Origin: Streptantibioticus cattleyicolor NRRL 8057 = DSM 46488
GTDB lineage: Bacteria; Actinomycetota; Actinomycetes; Streptomycetales; Streptomycetaceae
Assembly (NCBI RefSeq): GCF_000240165.1
Contig: NC_017586.1
Span: forward strand, 5,655,228-5,719,227
DNA: 64,000 nucleotides
Direction: 5' to 3'
The notes below the pieces were generated by a model, which did not search any database, had not been told where the DNA came from, and saw only the letters and a program-made list of their open reading frames with translations. This document shows positions 11,522-39,380 of the stretch, piece by piece. Position 1 is the stretch's first letter. Every line of letters starts with the position of its first letter. A program made the translations under genes and the position numbers.

Positions 11522-13063
<1,542 letters not shown>

Positions 13064-33541: not shown

Positions 33542-34740
33542 CGGGGCAGGTCCTTCCAGGGGACGTCCTTGTCGGTGCGGGGTTCCGGGGGCAGGCCGAG
33601 GACCCGTTCGGCGATGATGTTGCGCAGGATCTCCGAGGTGCCGCCCTCGATGGAGTTGCCCTTGGCGCGCAGATAGCGGTAACCGGCGTCGCGGCCGTAG
33701 AAGTCGACCGTCTCCGGGCGGGTCATCGTCCACTCCCCGTACCGCAGCCCGTCCTCGCCGAGGAGTTCCAGCTCCAGGCCGCTGACCGCCTGGTTGAGCC
33801 GGGCGAACGCCAGCTTCAGGCCGGAGCCCTCGGGGCCCGGGGCGCCCACCGCGAGTTGCTGGCGGACCCGTTCCGCGGTCAGCCGGGCGACCTCGGCGTC
33901 CACCCACAGCCGCAGCAGCCGGTCGTGCAGGCCCGGGGTGCGCGATCGCGGGTGCTGCCGCCAGGTGGCCGCCGCCTTGCCGATCATGCCGCCCTCGCGC
34001 GGCACGGGTGAACCGCCGATCGCCACCCGCTCGTTCATCAGCGTGGTCTGCGCGACCCGCCACCCCTCGCCGACCGCGCCGAGCCGGTCGGTGTCCGGGA
34101 TCCGCACGCCGGTCAGGAAGACCTCGTTGAACTCGGCCTCACCGGTGATCTGCCGCAGCGGACGCACCTCGACGCCGGGTGCGGTCATGTCGCACAGGAA
34201 GTAGGTGATGCCCTGGTGCTTGGGGAGGCCGGGGTCGGTGCGGGCGATCAGGATGGCCCGGCGCGCGTTGTGCGCGTTGGAGGTCCACACCTTCTGCCCG
34301 TCGACCACCCAGGTGTCGCCGTCGCGGACCGCCCGGGTGCGCAGTCCGGCCAGGTCGGAGCCGGCGCCCGGTTCGCTGAACAGCTGGCACCACACCTCCT
34401 CGCCGGTCCACAACGGCCGCAGGAAGCGTGCCTTCTGCTCCTTCGTGCCGTAGCGCAGGATGGTGGGCGCCGCCATGCCGAGGCCGATGCCGATGCGCCG
34501 AGGGTCGTTGTCCGGCGCCCCGGCCGCGGCGAACTCGGCGTCCGCCACGCTCTGCAGGGGCCGGGGGGCGCCGAGTCCGCCCAGCCCCACGGGGAAGTGC
34601 ACCCACGCCAGCCCGGCGTCGAAGCGCGCCCGCAGGAACGCCAGGCGGTCGGTGGCCGCCGGATCGTGCTCGGCGAGGAAGTCCCGCACCCGGCGGCGTA
34701 CCTCCCGCACGCCGGTCGTGCCCGTCTGGTCGGTCGTCAT
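33538..34740 (-). CDS. acyl-CoA dehydrogenase, alpha-type subunit
   Basis: A 400-residue FAD enzyme that oxidises an acyl-CoA to the 2,3-enoyl form. It shows the FSEPGAGSDLA FAD/substrate motif, the GQKVWTSNA segment, and near the C-terminus IEGGTSEILRN, where the Glu is at the usual catalytic position. The first gene in the pair, it is preceded by a 34-base region with two palindromes. Substrate chain is unknown. Confidence 0.9.
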   Translation of the reverse strand: MTTDQTGTTGVREVRRRVRDFLAEHDPAATDRLAFLRARFDAGLAWVHFPVGLGGLGAPRPLQSVADAEFAAAGAPDNDPRRIGIGLGMAAPTILRYGTKEQKARFLRPLWTGEEVWCQLFSEPGAGSDLAGLRTRAVRDGDTWVVDGQKVWTSNAHNARRAILIARTDPGLPKHQGITYFLCDMTAPGVEVRPLRQITGEAEFNEVFLTGVRIPDTDRLGAVGEGWRVAQTTLMNERVAIGGSPVPREGGMIGKAAATWRQHPRSRTPGLHDRLLRLWVDAEVARLTAERVRQQLAVGAPGPEGSGLKLAFARLNQAVSGLELELLGEDGLRYGEWTMTRPETVDFYGRDAGYRYLRAKGNSIEGGTSEILRNIIAERVLGLPPEPRTDKDVPWKDLPR

Positions 34741-34780: not shown

Positions 34781-34814
34781 GTGAGCTAAGCAAGCGCTTG
34801 GAAAGCTAGCTCAC
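34781..34814 (-). promoter_or_regulatory. double palindrome before the dehydrogenase pair
   Basis: GTGAGCTA (34781-34788) and TAGCTCAC (34807-34814) form an outer inverted repeat, and CAAGCGCTTG (34791-34800) is a perfect inner palindrome, offset by 2 bases from the outer centre. AGCAAGCGCTTG resembles TetR-type operators found before fatty-acyl catabolic genes in actinobacteria. It lies 41-74 bases upstream of the alpha-subunit start. Confidence 0.55.
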
Positions 34815-34847: not shown

Positions 34848-35246
34848 TCACAGCACGGCGTCGGTGCGCAACGGGCCCGCGGTGACGTGCAGCGTCCTGA
34901 TGTGCGCCGGTTCGGCGTCGTCGAGGCGGTAGATGTGCATGAACGGGGCGCGCACCACGGTGCCCGGGTCGTCCCTGCGCGCCATGACGGCCTCGCCGCG
35001 CAGCAGGTGGACGCCGTCGGGTGCGGACCAGTGCTCCAGCACCTCGTGGGTGATGTGGAGCGGCGCGTCGATCTTCACGAAGAACGCCTTGATCGCCTCG
35101 GCGCCGGTCACGTGCGCGGTGCCGAAGAACATCTCGGTCTCCTCGGTCATCCGCGCGAAGCCCTCGCCGAAGGAGAGCGTGTCGATCTCGCGCATGATCT
35201 GGATCACCCATTCCGGCGGTGCCGAGGGGGTGGCGGTGTACGTCAT
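34848..35246 (-). CDS. SnoaL-like / NTF2-fold protein
   Basis: A 132-residue protein with the size and pattern of the SnoaL-like (NTF2) fold: a first helix EWVIQIMREIDTLSFGEG, the RMTEETEMFFGTA strand, and later FMHIYRLDDAEPAHIRTLH. Such proteins act as small hydrolases, isomerases or binding domains. It follows the alpha/beta hydrolase gene by 14 bases and shares its HxlR-type upstream sites. A longer reading upstream (to 35975) is an overlap artefact. Function is unknown. Confidence 0.72.
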   Translation of the reverse strand: MTYTATPSAPPEWVIQIMREIDTLSFGEGFARMTEETEMFFGTAHVTGAEAIKAFFVKIDAPLHITHEVLEHWSAPDGVHLLRGEAVMARRDDPGTVVRAPFMHIYRLDDAEPAHIRTLHVTAGPLRTDAVL

Positions 35247-35260
35247 CGTGGTGTCTCCGT

Positions 35261-36115
35261 TCAGGCGGCGGCGGGCAGGGCGGCGAGGAAGGCGTCGATC
35301 TCGGCGTTGACCGCGTCGGGGTTCTCCCGGGCGGCCAGGTGGGCGGTGTGCGGCAGCACGCGCAGGACGCCGCCGGGGATGGCGTCGGCCATCCGCCGCA
35401 CCGCGTGCACCGGGAACTGGCTGTCCTCCTCCCCGGCGATCACCAGGACCGGGATGCCGGACGGGACGGTGGCCAGCCTGCGGTGCTCGTCCTTGCGGCC
35501 GATCAGGATGCTGCGCAGCGCCCAGGCCACCGACTTGGGGTCGTTGACCAGCACGGACCGGGTGAACTCCACGAACTCCGGGCGCTCGGCCTCGGCGGTC
35601 GGCCCGGCGAACGCGGCACGGGCGGCCCGGGCGGCGAGCTCCGGCATCCTCGCGTGCACCGAGAGGTAACCGGCGAGCGCGGTCGCCCAGACGCTCTCGA
35701 ACATGGTGGGCAGCGAGGCGGTGCAGTTGATGCCGACCGCGGCCGTGGTCCGCTCCGGGTGGTAGGCCGGGAAGACCCCGGCGAGCATGCCGCCCCAGCT
35801 GTTGCCGACCAGGACGCACCGGTCGATGGCGAGCGCGTCCAGCACCTCGGTGAGCGCGTCGGCGCAGTCCTTCAGGTCGATGAGCTTGCGCAGCGCGTCC
35901 GACCTGCCGTGTCCGGGGCTGTCCACCAGCACCATGCGGTGGGTGGGGGCGAAGTGCTCGTACTGGTACCGCCACATGGTGCCGTCCATCATCAGGCTCG
36001 GCCAGCAGACCATGGCCGGCCCGTCGGCGCGGCCCCCCTCCCGCACGTTGATCAGTCCGAGCGAGGTGGGGATCAGCTTCTCGGTGACGTCGTCGAGCCA
36101 GTGTGCCGTTGCCAT
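35261..36115 (-). CDS. alpha/beta hydrolase
   Basis: A 284-residue hydrolase. The nucleophile elbow is GNSWGG with Ser in the centre, the oxyanion region is near WPSLMMDG, the acid is likely in AGEEDSQFP and the His in LPHTAHLA. It resembles C-C bond or ester hydrolases in aromatic and fatty catabolism. RBS GAGGAG lies 7 bases upstream of the ATG. It is the first gene of the unit with the SnoaL-like gene, under spaced CTAGTA/TACTAG sites. Confidence 0.85.
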   Translation of the reverse strand: MATAHWLDDVTEKLIPTSLGLINVREGGRADGPAMVCWPSLMMDGTMWRYQYEHFAPTHRMVLVDSPGHGRSDALRKLIDLKDCADALTEVLDALAIDRCVLVGNSWGGMLAGVFPAYHPERTTAAVGINCTASLPTMFESVWATALAGYLSVHARMPELAARAARAAFAGPTAEAERPEFVEFTRSVLVNDPKSVAWALRSILIGRKDEHRRLATVPSGIPVLVIAGEEDSQFPVHAVRRMADAIPGGVLRVLPHTAHLAARENPDAVNAEIDAFLAALPAAA

Positions 36116-36167: not shown

Positions 36168-36206
36168 ACTAGTACGAGACTACTACTAGTACGGAATTAA
36201 TACTAG
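36168..36206 (-). promoter_or_regulatory. three 17-base-spaced HxlR-type elements
   Basis: ACTAG cores begin at 36168, 36185 and 36202, exactly 17 bases apart. Read as inverted repeats they give CTAGTA-N9-TACTAG twice in overlapping form. Similar TACTA/TAGTA inverted sites are bound by HxlR-family regulators such as YodB. The block lies 53-91 bases upstream of the hydrolase start, where a promoter would be, and touches the end of the hxlR-like gene. Confidence 0.7.
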
Positions 36207-36664
36207 GAGGGGCCGTCGTCCTGCGGTGTCAGCGGCTCCAGGGTGTCCGCCTCGATGGGCCGGTGGCAGCTGCTGCACGCCAGGTACGGCTCGGTGCGGT
36301 GGCCGCAGGAGGTGTGGAGCAGCGGCCGGGCGTCGGTGGGACGGGCGTCGGCGTGGGTCTCGGCCCAGCGGGTGACGGCGACGACGGCCGGGACGACCAG
36401 CTCGCGCGCGGGGTCGGTGAGCCGGTACTCGAACCAGGGCTTGTCCGCCCGGTAGGCCCGCTTCTCCAGCAGTCCCAGCTCGGTCAGGTCGTTCAGGCGG
36501 GCGGTGAGCATGGTCGCCGAGATCCCCAGGGTGCGCTTGAGCTCGCCGAACCGGTGGACGCCGAAGAAGACCTCACGCAGGATCTGGTAGTTCCAGCGCT
36601 CCGAGATCGCGGCGAGGAACGCCTGCCCGTGCTGGAAGGTGACGTGGTCGGGACGGTCGGCCAT
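36203..36664 (-). CDS. HxlR-family regulator with Cys/His-rich tail
   Basis: A 153-residue HxlR regulator. The winged helix at about residues 15-100 includes SERWNYQILREVFFG, HRFGELKRTLGISATMLTARL and YRLTDPARELV. After it, the C-terminal tail reads LLHTSCGHRTEPYLAC then SSCHRP, with a Cys and His pair followed by a CxxC and His, like a zinc site. Most HxlR proteins end before such a tail. It is likely autoregulated, because matching sites lie just upstream. Confidence 0.87.
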   Translation of the reverse strand: MADRPDHVTFQHGQAFLAAISERWNYQILREVFFGVHRFGELKRTLGISATMLTARLNDLTELGLLEKRAYRADKPWFEYRLTDPARELVVPAVVAVTRWAETHADARPTDARPLLHTSCGHRTEPYLACSSCHRPIEADTLEPLTPQDDGPS

Positions 36665-36675
36665 GAGCGGTCCTC

Positions 36676-36698
36676 ACTAGTCGGGAAACGCAACTAGT
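36676..36698 (-). promoter_or_regulatory. HxlR-type element before hxlR-like gene
   Basis: ACTAGT occurs at 36676-36681 and at 36693-36698, again 17 bases apart, directly next to the ribosome site of the regulator gene. The shared spacing with the block at 36168-36206 supports a common regulator, most simply the HxlR protein itself. Confidence 0.65.
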
Positions 36699-36738
36699 AT
36701 CAGTATGGGACCACTGCGTGGGGTGGTGCGAGGACCGG

Positions 36739-38877: not shown

Positions 38878-38885
38878 GGTACGTG

Positions 38886-38957
38886 TGGACGATACTGGGA
38901 TTGAACCAGTGACCTCTTCCGTGTCAGGGAAGCGCTCTCCCGCTGAGCTAATCGTCC
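38886..38957 (-). tRNA. tRNA-Val(GAC)
   Basis: A 72-base tRNA with acceptor arms GGACGAT and ATCGTCC, and anticodon loop CTGACAC, giving anticodon GAC for valine. CCA is not encoded. Last of five in the cluster. Confidence 0.95.
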
Positions 38958-39003
38958 TCGGGACGTGTGCCACCGGCGCCGAAGGCGGACGATGGACACC
39001 GCG

Positions 39004-39075
39004 TGCGCGATACTGGGATTGAACCAGTGACCTCTTCCGTGTCAGGGAAGCGCTCTCCCGCTGAGCTAATCGCGC
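39004..39075 (-). tRNA. tRNA-Val(GAC), acceptor-stem variant
   Basis: Body identical to the flanking tRNA-Val genes, anticodon GAC, but the acceptor stem is GCGCGAT/ATCGCGC instead of GGACGAT/ATCGTCC, with both strands changed so pairing is kept. Confidence 0.95.
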
Positions 39076-39119
39076 GGGCTTCCGGCCGGAGCCGGAAGGA
39101 AGGTCCTCACGGACCCTGG

Positions 39120-39191
39120 TGGACGATACTGGGATTGAACCAGTGACCTCTTCCGTGTCAGGGAAGCGCTCTCCCGCTGAGCTAATCGTCC
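39120..39191 (-). tRNA. tRNA-Val(GAC)
   Basis: 72 bases, same sequence as the copy at 38886-38957, anticodon GAC. It ends just before the tRNA-Cys gene on the transcript's upstream side. Confidence 0.95.
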
Positions 39192-39192
39192 G

Positions 39193-39263
39193 AGGTGGAG
39201 ACGGGATTTGAACCCGTGTAGACGGCTTTGCAGGCCGTTGCCTCGCCTCTCGGCCACTCCACC
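39193..39263 (-). tRNA. tRNA-Cys(GCA)
   Basis: 71 bases with acceptor GGTGGAG/CTCCACC, anticodon loop CTGCAAA (GCA, cysteine). One base separates it from the next tRNA-Val, so the cluster is surely one transcript. Confidence 0.95.
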
Positions 39264-39307
39264 AACGTGAGGATCAAGATCCTTTGTGAGGATCGAGATC
39301 TTCATCG

Positions 39308-39380
39308 AGCGGACGACGGGATTCGAACCCGCGACCCTCACCTTGGCAAGGTGATGCTCTACCAACTGAGCCACGTCCGC
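39308..39380 (-). tRNA. tRNA-Gly(GCC)
   Basis: 73 bases with acceptor GCGGACG/CGTCCGC and anticodon loop TTGCCAA (GCC, glycine). It is the first tRNA of the cluster Gly-Cys-Val-Val-Val. Confidence 0.95.

Follow-up and report, generated by a model that had tools for sequence, protein, structure and literature searches.

The ACTAGT hexamers that flank a small regulator gene of Streptantibioticus cattleyicolor, in the 64-kb stretch of DNA analysed here (the window), form ladders with a step of 17 bp that most likely, with a probability of roughly 0.85, represent the operator of the adjacent autoregulatory HxlR repressor, the dimers of which would cover the -10 and start region of hxlR as well as that of the hydrolase and SnoaL-like genes. 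On the minus strand, hxlR is followed by an alpha/beta hydrolase gene and then by a gene for a small SnoaL-like protein (Table 1). The established part of this picture consists of the sequence itself, the uniqueness of the ladders in the genome that carries them, the conservation of the hexamers, the step and the inner flanks, and the co-inheritance. Judged from these sequence features, the arrangement appears to be an ordinary, well conserved autoregulatory HxlR-type operator of a known kind with an overlapping layout.

Table 1. Genes and putative operator elements of the hxlR locus, given as positions in the window.
Feature	Position	Strand	Description
hxlR-like regulator gene	36203-36664	-	153 aa; winged helix followed by a HxxCG-x8-CxxC tail at the C-terminus; Pfam HxlR PF01638
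alpha/beta hydrolase gene	35261-36115	-	284 aa; Pfam Abhydrolase_1; proposed target
SnoaL/NTF2-like small protein gene	34848-35246	-	132 aa; weak SnoaL_2 match; proposed co-transcribed target
Putative operator unit nearest the hydrolase start	36168-36190	-	ACTAGT-N11-ACTAGT; minus strand reads ACTAGTAGTAGTCTCGTACTAGT; 9/11 inverted-repeat matches
Overlapping putative operator unit	36185-36207	-	shares hexamer 36185-36190; 7/11 inverted-repeat matches
Putative operator unit before hxlR	36676-36698	-	ACTAGT-N11-ACTAGT; ends 11 bases from the hxlR start codon; 8/11 inverted-repeat matches
Possible third, degenerate hexamer of the hxlR ladder	36710-36715	-	ACCACT, 4/6; weak alone

A preliminary description of this DNA had placed ACTAG cores at 36168, 36185, 36202, 36676 and 36693 in steps of 17 bases, and both the positions and the exact spacing were confirmed. 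The lattice carries ACTAGT at 36168, 36185, 36676 and 36693 and the five-of-six match ACTAGG at 36202, an outer hexamer (36202-36207) that includes the hxlR stop codon. These sites account for all five plus-strand ACTAG and all four ACTAGT of the window, where ACTAG on the minus strand occurs once outside the ladders (CTAGT at 11636) and CTAG is rare (nine in 64 kb). The repeats had also been read as CTAGTA-N9-TACTAG, which is exact at 36169 and 36186, whereas the pair in front of hxlR reads CTAGTC-N9-AACTAG and departs from this form by two mismatches. The bare count of ACTAGT in the window (four observed, 1.28 expected from shuffling) is weak, since 4 of 100 shuffles reached four, and it is the arrangement that matters: CTAGTA-N9-TACTAG with up to two mismatches was found three times in the window against 0.05 expected, and none of 100 shuffles reached three. 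Throughout the 8.1-Mb genome, a search for ACTAGT-N11-ACTAGT that allowed up to one mismatch gave three places, all of them at this locus, and six further places have two mismatches, one of which is a shifted pair at the hxlR ladder. The pattern is thus rare in its own genome, with nine matches at up to two mismatches compared to 83 for a reversed control pattern. One of the two-mismatch matches (C1:445094, L060), located before a gene named by eye as small multidrug-resistance-like, lacks GTA-N9-TAC and was set aside as chance. Three-hexamer ladders before hxlR are present at two other loci (L007 and L056).

Searches for relatives of the HxlR protein gave matches in 10 of 394 family genomes (E 1e-30) and in 15 of 392 genomes from one genus of this family (1e-40), while a class sample at 1e-32 yielded 1 of 394, the own genome only, showing that this sample missed orthologues of the Sciscionella type; at most the best nine candidates were scored per genome in the family, genus and class searches. 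The own genus is represented by one genome, the named genomes provided six close loci among 15 (four from Streptomyces and two from Sciscionella), and no orthologue was found on plasmids at 1e-20. With three duplicates and two distant loci (L014 and L058) left out, 26 non-redundant loci were obtained, the own locus and 25 orthologues of 66-81% identity; these loci are related, and the ladder and flank counts drawn from them are not independent.

The preliminary description had named conservation of the spacing at orthologous loci as a test of a shared operator, and this test was run by scoring pairs of ACTAGT for every step between 6 and 40, both in the upstream gap (120 bases before hxlR) and in the downstream gap (a stretch that starts 20 bases ahead of the end of the hxlR stop codon and reaches 130 bases past it). 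The 17-bp step was prominent in both gaps and had the highest mean score of all steps across the 26 loci. Upstream, the mean best score was 9.73 of 12 compared to 6.73 in 200 dinucleotide shuffles (sd 0.15, largest 7.19), and downstream it was 10.77 of 12 compared to 7.10 (200 shuffles; sd 0.15, largest 7.54). At least 11 of the 12 letters were matched at 17 of the 26 loci downstream (nine fell below) as against 5 of 26 upstream (21 below), indicating that the upstream operator is weaker or more degenerate than the downstream one; across the 26 loci the operator on the hxlR side is often degenerate. A step of 34 reached the same level at 1 of 26 loci upstream and 10 of 26 downstream, a signal that the ladder predicts, and the remaining steps did so at no more than 3 of 26. 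The ladder is also kept in another genus, Sciscionella.

The extent of the putative bound unit was derived from 49 hexamer pairs of 22 of the 26 loci, with both hexamers matching at least 5/6 and one pair (L009, AGTAGT/AGTAGT) being a register artefact. Information content is 0.27-0.65 bits per position for the five bases on the inner side of the hexamers (n=98), the majority being A/T-G-C-G/A-T/A, whereas the five bases beyond the terminal hexamers reach 0.03-0.20 bits (n=54) and are not conserved. Hence, the unit is a 23-bp inverted repeat centred on the spacer, its best form being ACTAGTAGCGTTACGCTACTAGT and its majority form ACTAGT-(W)GC(R)(W)-N-(W)(Y)GC(W)-ACTAGT, and adjoining units have one hexamer in common. 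The three units of the window all fall short of the perfect repeat (Table 1). Such conserved inverted repeats are found at hxlR itself and at the neighbouring gene, where binding is predicted.

With respect to the promoters, a TANNNT directly adjoins the final hexamer of the downstream ladder at 19 of 24 loci (counted by script, two of the 26 being without a ladder there), and on the upstream side of hxlR one is found 12 bases ahead of a hexamer at 17 of 26 loci, both offsets having been chosen after inspection and the counts being without a control. Two of the five misses of the downstream count, L054 and L056, result from a wrongly chosen register and do show TATGCT and TACGCT at that place. 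The own locus has no TANNNT at the conserved place in either promoter, and a sigma-70 scan of this locus found no promoter. Judging from the TANNNT matches of the other loci, we infer that the ladders would cover the region from -10 to +1 and act by occlusion.

The nearest NCBIfam models of the hydrolase are PcaD-like and far under their cut-off. When the best six candidates of each of the 394 family genomes were scored, an orthologue of this enzyme was detected in 8, and every one of these belongs to the 10 genomes with an HxlR match; the two HxlR-match genomes without a counted hydrolase are G012 (46% identity) and G236, in which the hydrolase is broken. In G191 the SnoaL-like gene directly follows hxlR, and the hydrolase gene is separated from hxlR by 525 kb, lies close to a transposase-like gene (by eye) and has a three-hexamer ladder of its own, GCTAGT-N11-ACTAGT-N11-ACTAGT, with spacer letters unlike those of the ladder at hxlR. 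In G433 and G663 (L046 and L049), scoring of all candidates at 1e-40 revealed no hydrolase, and at these loci only an apparent remnant of the hydrolase end follows hxlR (by eye) and the ladder of the downstream gap is also missing. However, loss of the ladder along with the hydrolase is not uniform. The ladder is kept in L007 (G236), though the hydrolase there reads as internally deleted and is followed by the SnoaL-like gene, and in L052 and L053 the ladder stands directly before the SnoaL-like gene with no hydrolase in between at the locus. The hydrolase is thus not the sole gene behind the ladder, and since the ladder is retained in L007, L052 and L053, the SnoaL-like gene is a likely target itself. 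The SnoaL-like gene follows hxlR without an intact hydrolase in between in L006, L007, L046, L049, L052 and L053, and these loci other than L006 hint at a more constant partnership of hxlR with the SnoaL-like protein than with the hydrolase. Its match to SnoaL_2 is weak in the window (E 0.0087, below the cut-off), and that of the relative in L052 (E 0.00021) is below the cut-off too.

Two further features of the window were observed in passing. An imperfect palindrome, GTGAGCTAAGCAAGCGCTTGGAAAGCTAGCTCAC, at 34781-34814 between the SnoaL-like gene and an acyl-CoA dehydrogenase gene starting at 34740 looks like the operator of a different regulator, and a cluster of five tRNA genes (three Val-GAC, Cys-GCA and Gly-GCC) is located on the minus strand at 38885-39380.

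The regulator scores 64.1 bits against Pfam HxlR PF01638 (cut-off 20.8) and thus carries the winged-helix domain of this family. An AlphaFold model from 12 sequences (mean pLDDT 68.6, with 82-92 per block of ten for residues 21-80 and low confidence in the tail) predicts a winged helix with the recognition helix at residues 50-62, and the fold matches of the model include PA1607, HypR, YodB, QsrR and HxlR structures. The first cysteine is residue 120, and the protein is without an N-terminal sensing cysteine of the kind of YodB Cys6. H117, C120, C130 and C133 are invariant across 15 aligned sequences, which suggests a metal site; when more distant HxlR proteins are included (L021-L029 among them), 12 of 12 sequences retain C120, G121, C130 and C133, and H117 is no longer invariant. 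From this pattern, the C-terminal Cys/His tail is possibly a metal site or a redox switch. The CG-x8-CxxC part of the tail (window 36266-36316) is common even to the distant HxlR proteins of L021-L029.

The uniqueness of the ladder in its own genome, the co-occurrence of hydrolase and hxlR, the separate ladder in G191 and the loss of the ladder in G433 and G663 all point to the neighbouring HxlR as the binding protein. The conserved 17-bp step, the co-occurrence and the G191 ladder support the proposal of a shared operator and autoregulation that had been made at the outset. We suggest that a dimer of HxlR binds the 23-bp inverted repeat, that its recognition helices would enter the two major grooves located some 5 bp from the centre on each side, near TAGCG/CGCTA, and that the wings would touch the outer CTAGT. 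Since ACTAGT is itself palindromic, a second unit can begin in the last hexamer of the first, which would generate ladders of two or three hexamers in 17-bp steps on which neighbouring dimers may be bound simultaneously. Because the ladders lie over the presumed -10/+1 regions of both transcripts, the bound protein would block RNA polymerase, resulting in negative autoregulation and repression of the enzymes, and an inducer would presumably release HxlR from the ladder.

Several other explanations were considered. Repeated AT-rich hexamers could arise in GC-rich intergenic DNA by chance or mutational bias and have no function, and the hexamer is indeed short: 18 exact copies of ACTAGT-N11-ACTAGT are present in 15 of the 394 genomes, six of them at the hxlR system (two each in G000, G191 and G201) and 12 away from it. 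Yet shuffles of the same regions (200 each) never reached the observed 17-step scores, CTAG is as rare as described above, and the ladder has been conserved as far as Sciscionella, so that this explanation is strongly disfavoured and in our view extremely improbable. The exact sites also bear on the idea that the ladder belongs to another regulator encoded elsewhere, for instance of the TetR type, with hxlR merely one of its targets. Nine of them, in nine genomes, lie in the gap that separates a tetR gene from a divergent MFS gene (L032, L034-L040 and L042, positions 1501-1523), each locus carrying TetR and MFS peptide words and L032 a Pfam TetR_N match, indicating that proteins other than HxlR may use such a site and that the bare pattern is not diagnostic of HxlR. 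However, the tetR/MFS sites have different conserved flanks (TGTCACTAGT...GACTAGTCA) and different spacers from the hxlR ladders, and they are probably a TetR operator that arrived at the same pattern. Moreover, the own genome holds no further site with at most one mismatch, as would be expected for a regulator with its own site elsewhere, and ladder, hxlR and hydrolase are inherited together; hence we regard a foreign regulator as quite unlikely. Other exact sites were found in G176 and G178 (L030 and L031, 1501-1523), between epimerase-like and kinase-like genes and at the 3' end of the former (by eye), not near hxlR, and in G338 near a GntR-like gene (by eye from translations). G178 also has an hxlR orthologue, far off, so that the neighbourhood of this site does not account for it. 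Exact copies of the reversed control pattern were seen in many of the 394 genomes, with up to four in one.

An alternative that retains HxlR as the binding protein is that it represses its own gene and activates the hydrolase promoter from the ladder, as B. subtilis HxlR does with its target, and B. subtilis HxlR has been termed a positive regulator of the formaldehyde response (PMC7835342). At most of the counted loci, however, the ladder overlaps the putative -10 and start site (positions taken from TANNNT only) instead of standing upstream of a -35, which makes activation unlikely compared to the repression proposed here.

The ladder looks like a feature of a clade and not of the HxlR family, since the other HxlR groups examined are without it. 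The own genome has 16 PF01638 matches, and among the 14 of these loci read by eye, one being the present hxlR, no ACTAGT ladder was seen at the others; nor was one seen by eye at the nine distant HxlR loci L021-L029, eight of which (not L026) have TTGGA...TCCAA-like repeats instead (by eye). GTA-Nn-TAC was tried as a general HxlR site and rejected: when the 120 upstream bases of 13 HxlR genes of the own genome were scanned for every n from 3 to 18, n=9 matched once, as did each of five other spacings, so GTA-N9-TAC is no general rule. The two distant loci L014 (46% identity) and L058 (54%) carry ACTACT-N11-AGTAC(T/A)-N11-(A/G)GTACT upstream (by eye), a 17-bp step with an AGTACT-like core, and their recognition helix reads GIAPNTLTARL in place of GISA(T/N)(M/I)LT(A/T/V)RL. 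A search for more members of this group in three genomes of the genus returned only the known one, and the joint change of core and helix, seen in two sequences, is suggestive only. We speculated, tentatively, that the 17-bp step is a lattice on which dimers at neighbouring units, about 220 degrees apart, cooperate in wrapping the promoter in a short filament, and that a change of recognition helix alters the hexamer specificity but not the step. If so, the locus would offer a simple case for cooperation between HxlR dimers and for shifts in DNA specificity. Among the matches listed, the open-licence literature contained no report of this regulator or of an ACTAGT operator of an HxlR protein. 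The analysis provides a testable operator, together with its likely targets, for an actinobacterial HxlR group that has a Cys/His tail and lacks a sensing cysteine at the N-terminus.

Among proteins of known structure, PA1607 (2f2e) and PA1374 (4gcv) of Pseudomonas aeruginosa are the two best PDB sequence matches and belong to the best fold matches, the match to 4gcv spanning residues 17-137 of the window HxlR with the cysteine tail included. The quinone sensors YodB of B. subtilis and QsrR of S. aureus have the HxlR/DUF24 fold in common with the window protein, in which YodB Cys6 is without a counterpart. The operator of QsrR is GTATA-N5-TATAC. Both sensors bind as a dimer to an inverted repeat that spans two major grooves (PMC8063818). 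YodB had been cited by the preliminary description as an HxlR-type regulator that binds TACTA/TAGTA inverted sites, a comparison which proved wrong in detail, as the YodB site is given as TACT-[7]-AGTA (PMC8063818) and TAGTA-N9-TACTA of the window runs in the opposite orientation and with a different spacing. B. subtilis HxlR (MarR/DUF24; 7bzg, co-crystallised with DNA) likewise has family and fold in common with the window HxlR. It senses formaldehyde via Cys11/Lys13 (PMC7835342), whereas the window protein has no cysteine before residue 120, and the target genes of the two differ. A ladder of shared palindromic hexamers is not among the features described for it in the available part of that source. 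The DNA crystallised with B. subtilis HxlR, CAGTATCCTCGAGGATACTG, contains GTA-N10-TAC (PMC7835342), and the best sites of the window, with GTA-N9-TAC, are one base off this arrangement, the site before hxlR being without it by two mismatches. In conclusion, the DNA crystallised with B. subtilis HxlR is closer to the ladder than the YodB site is.
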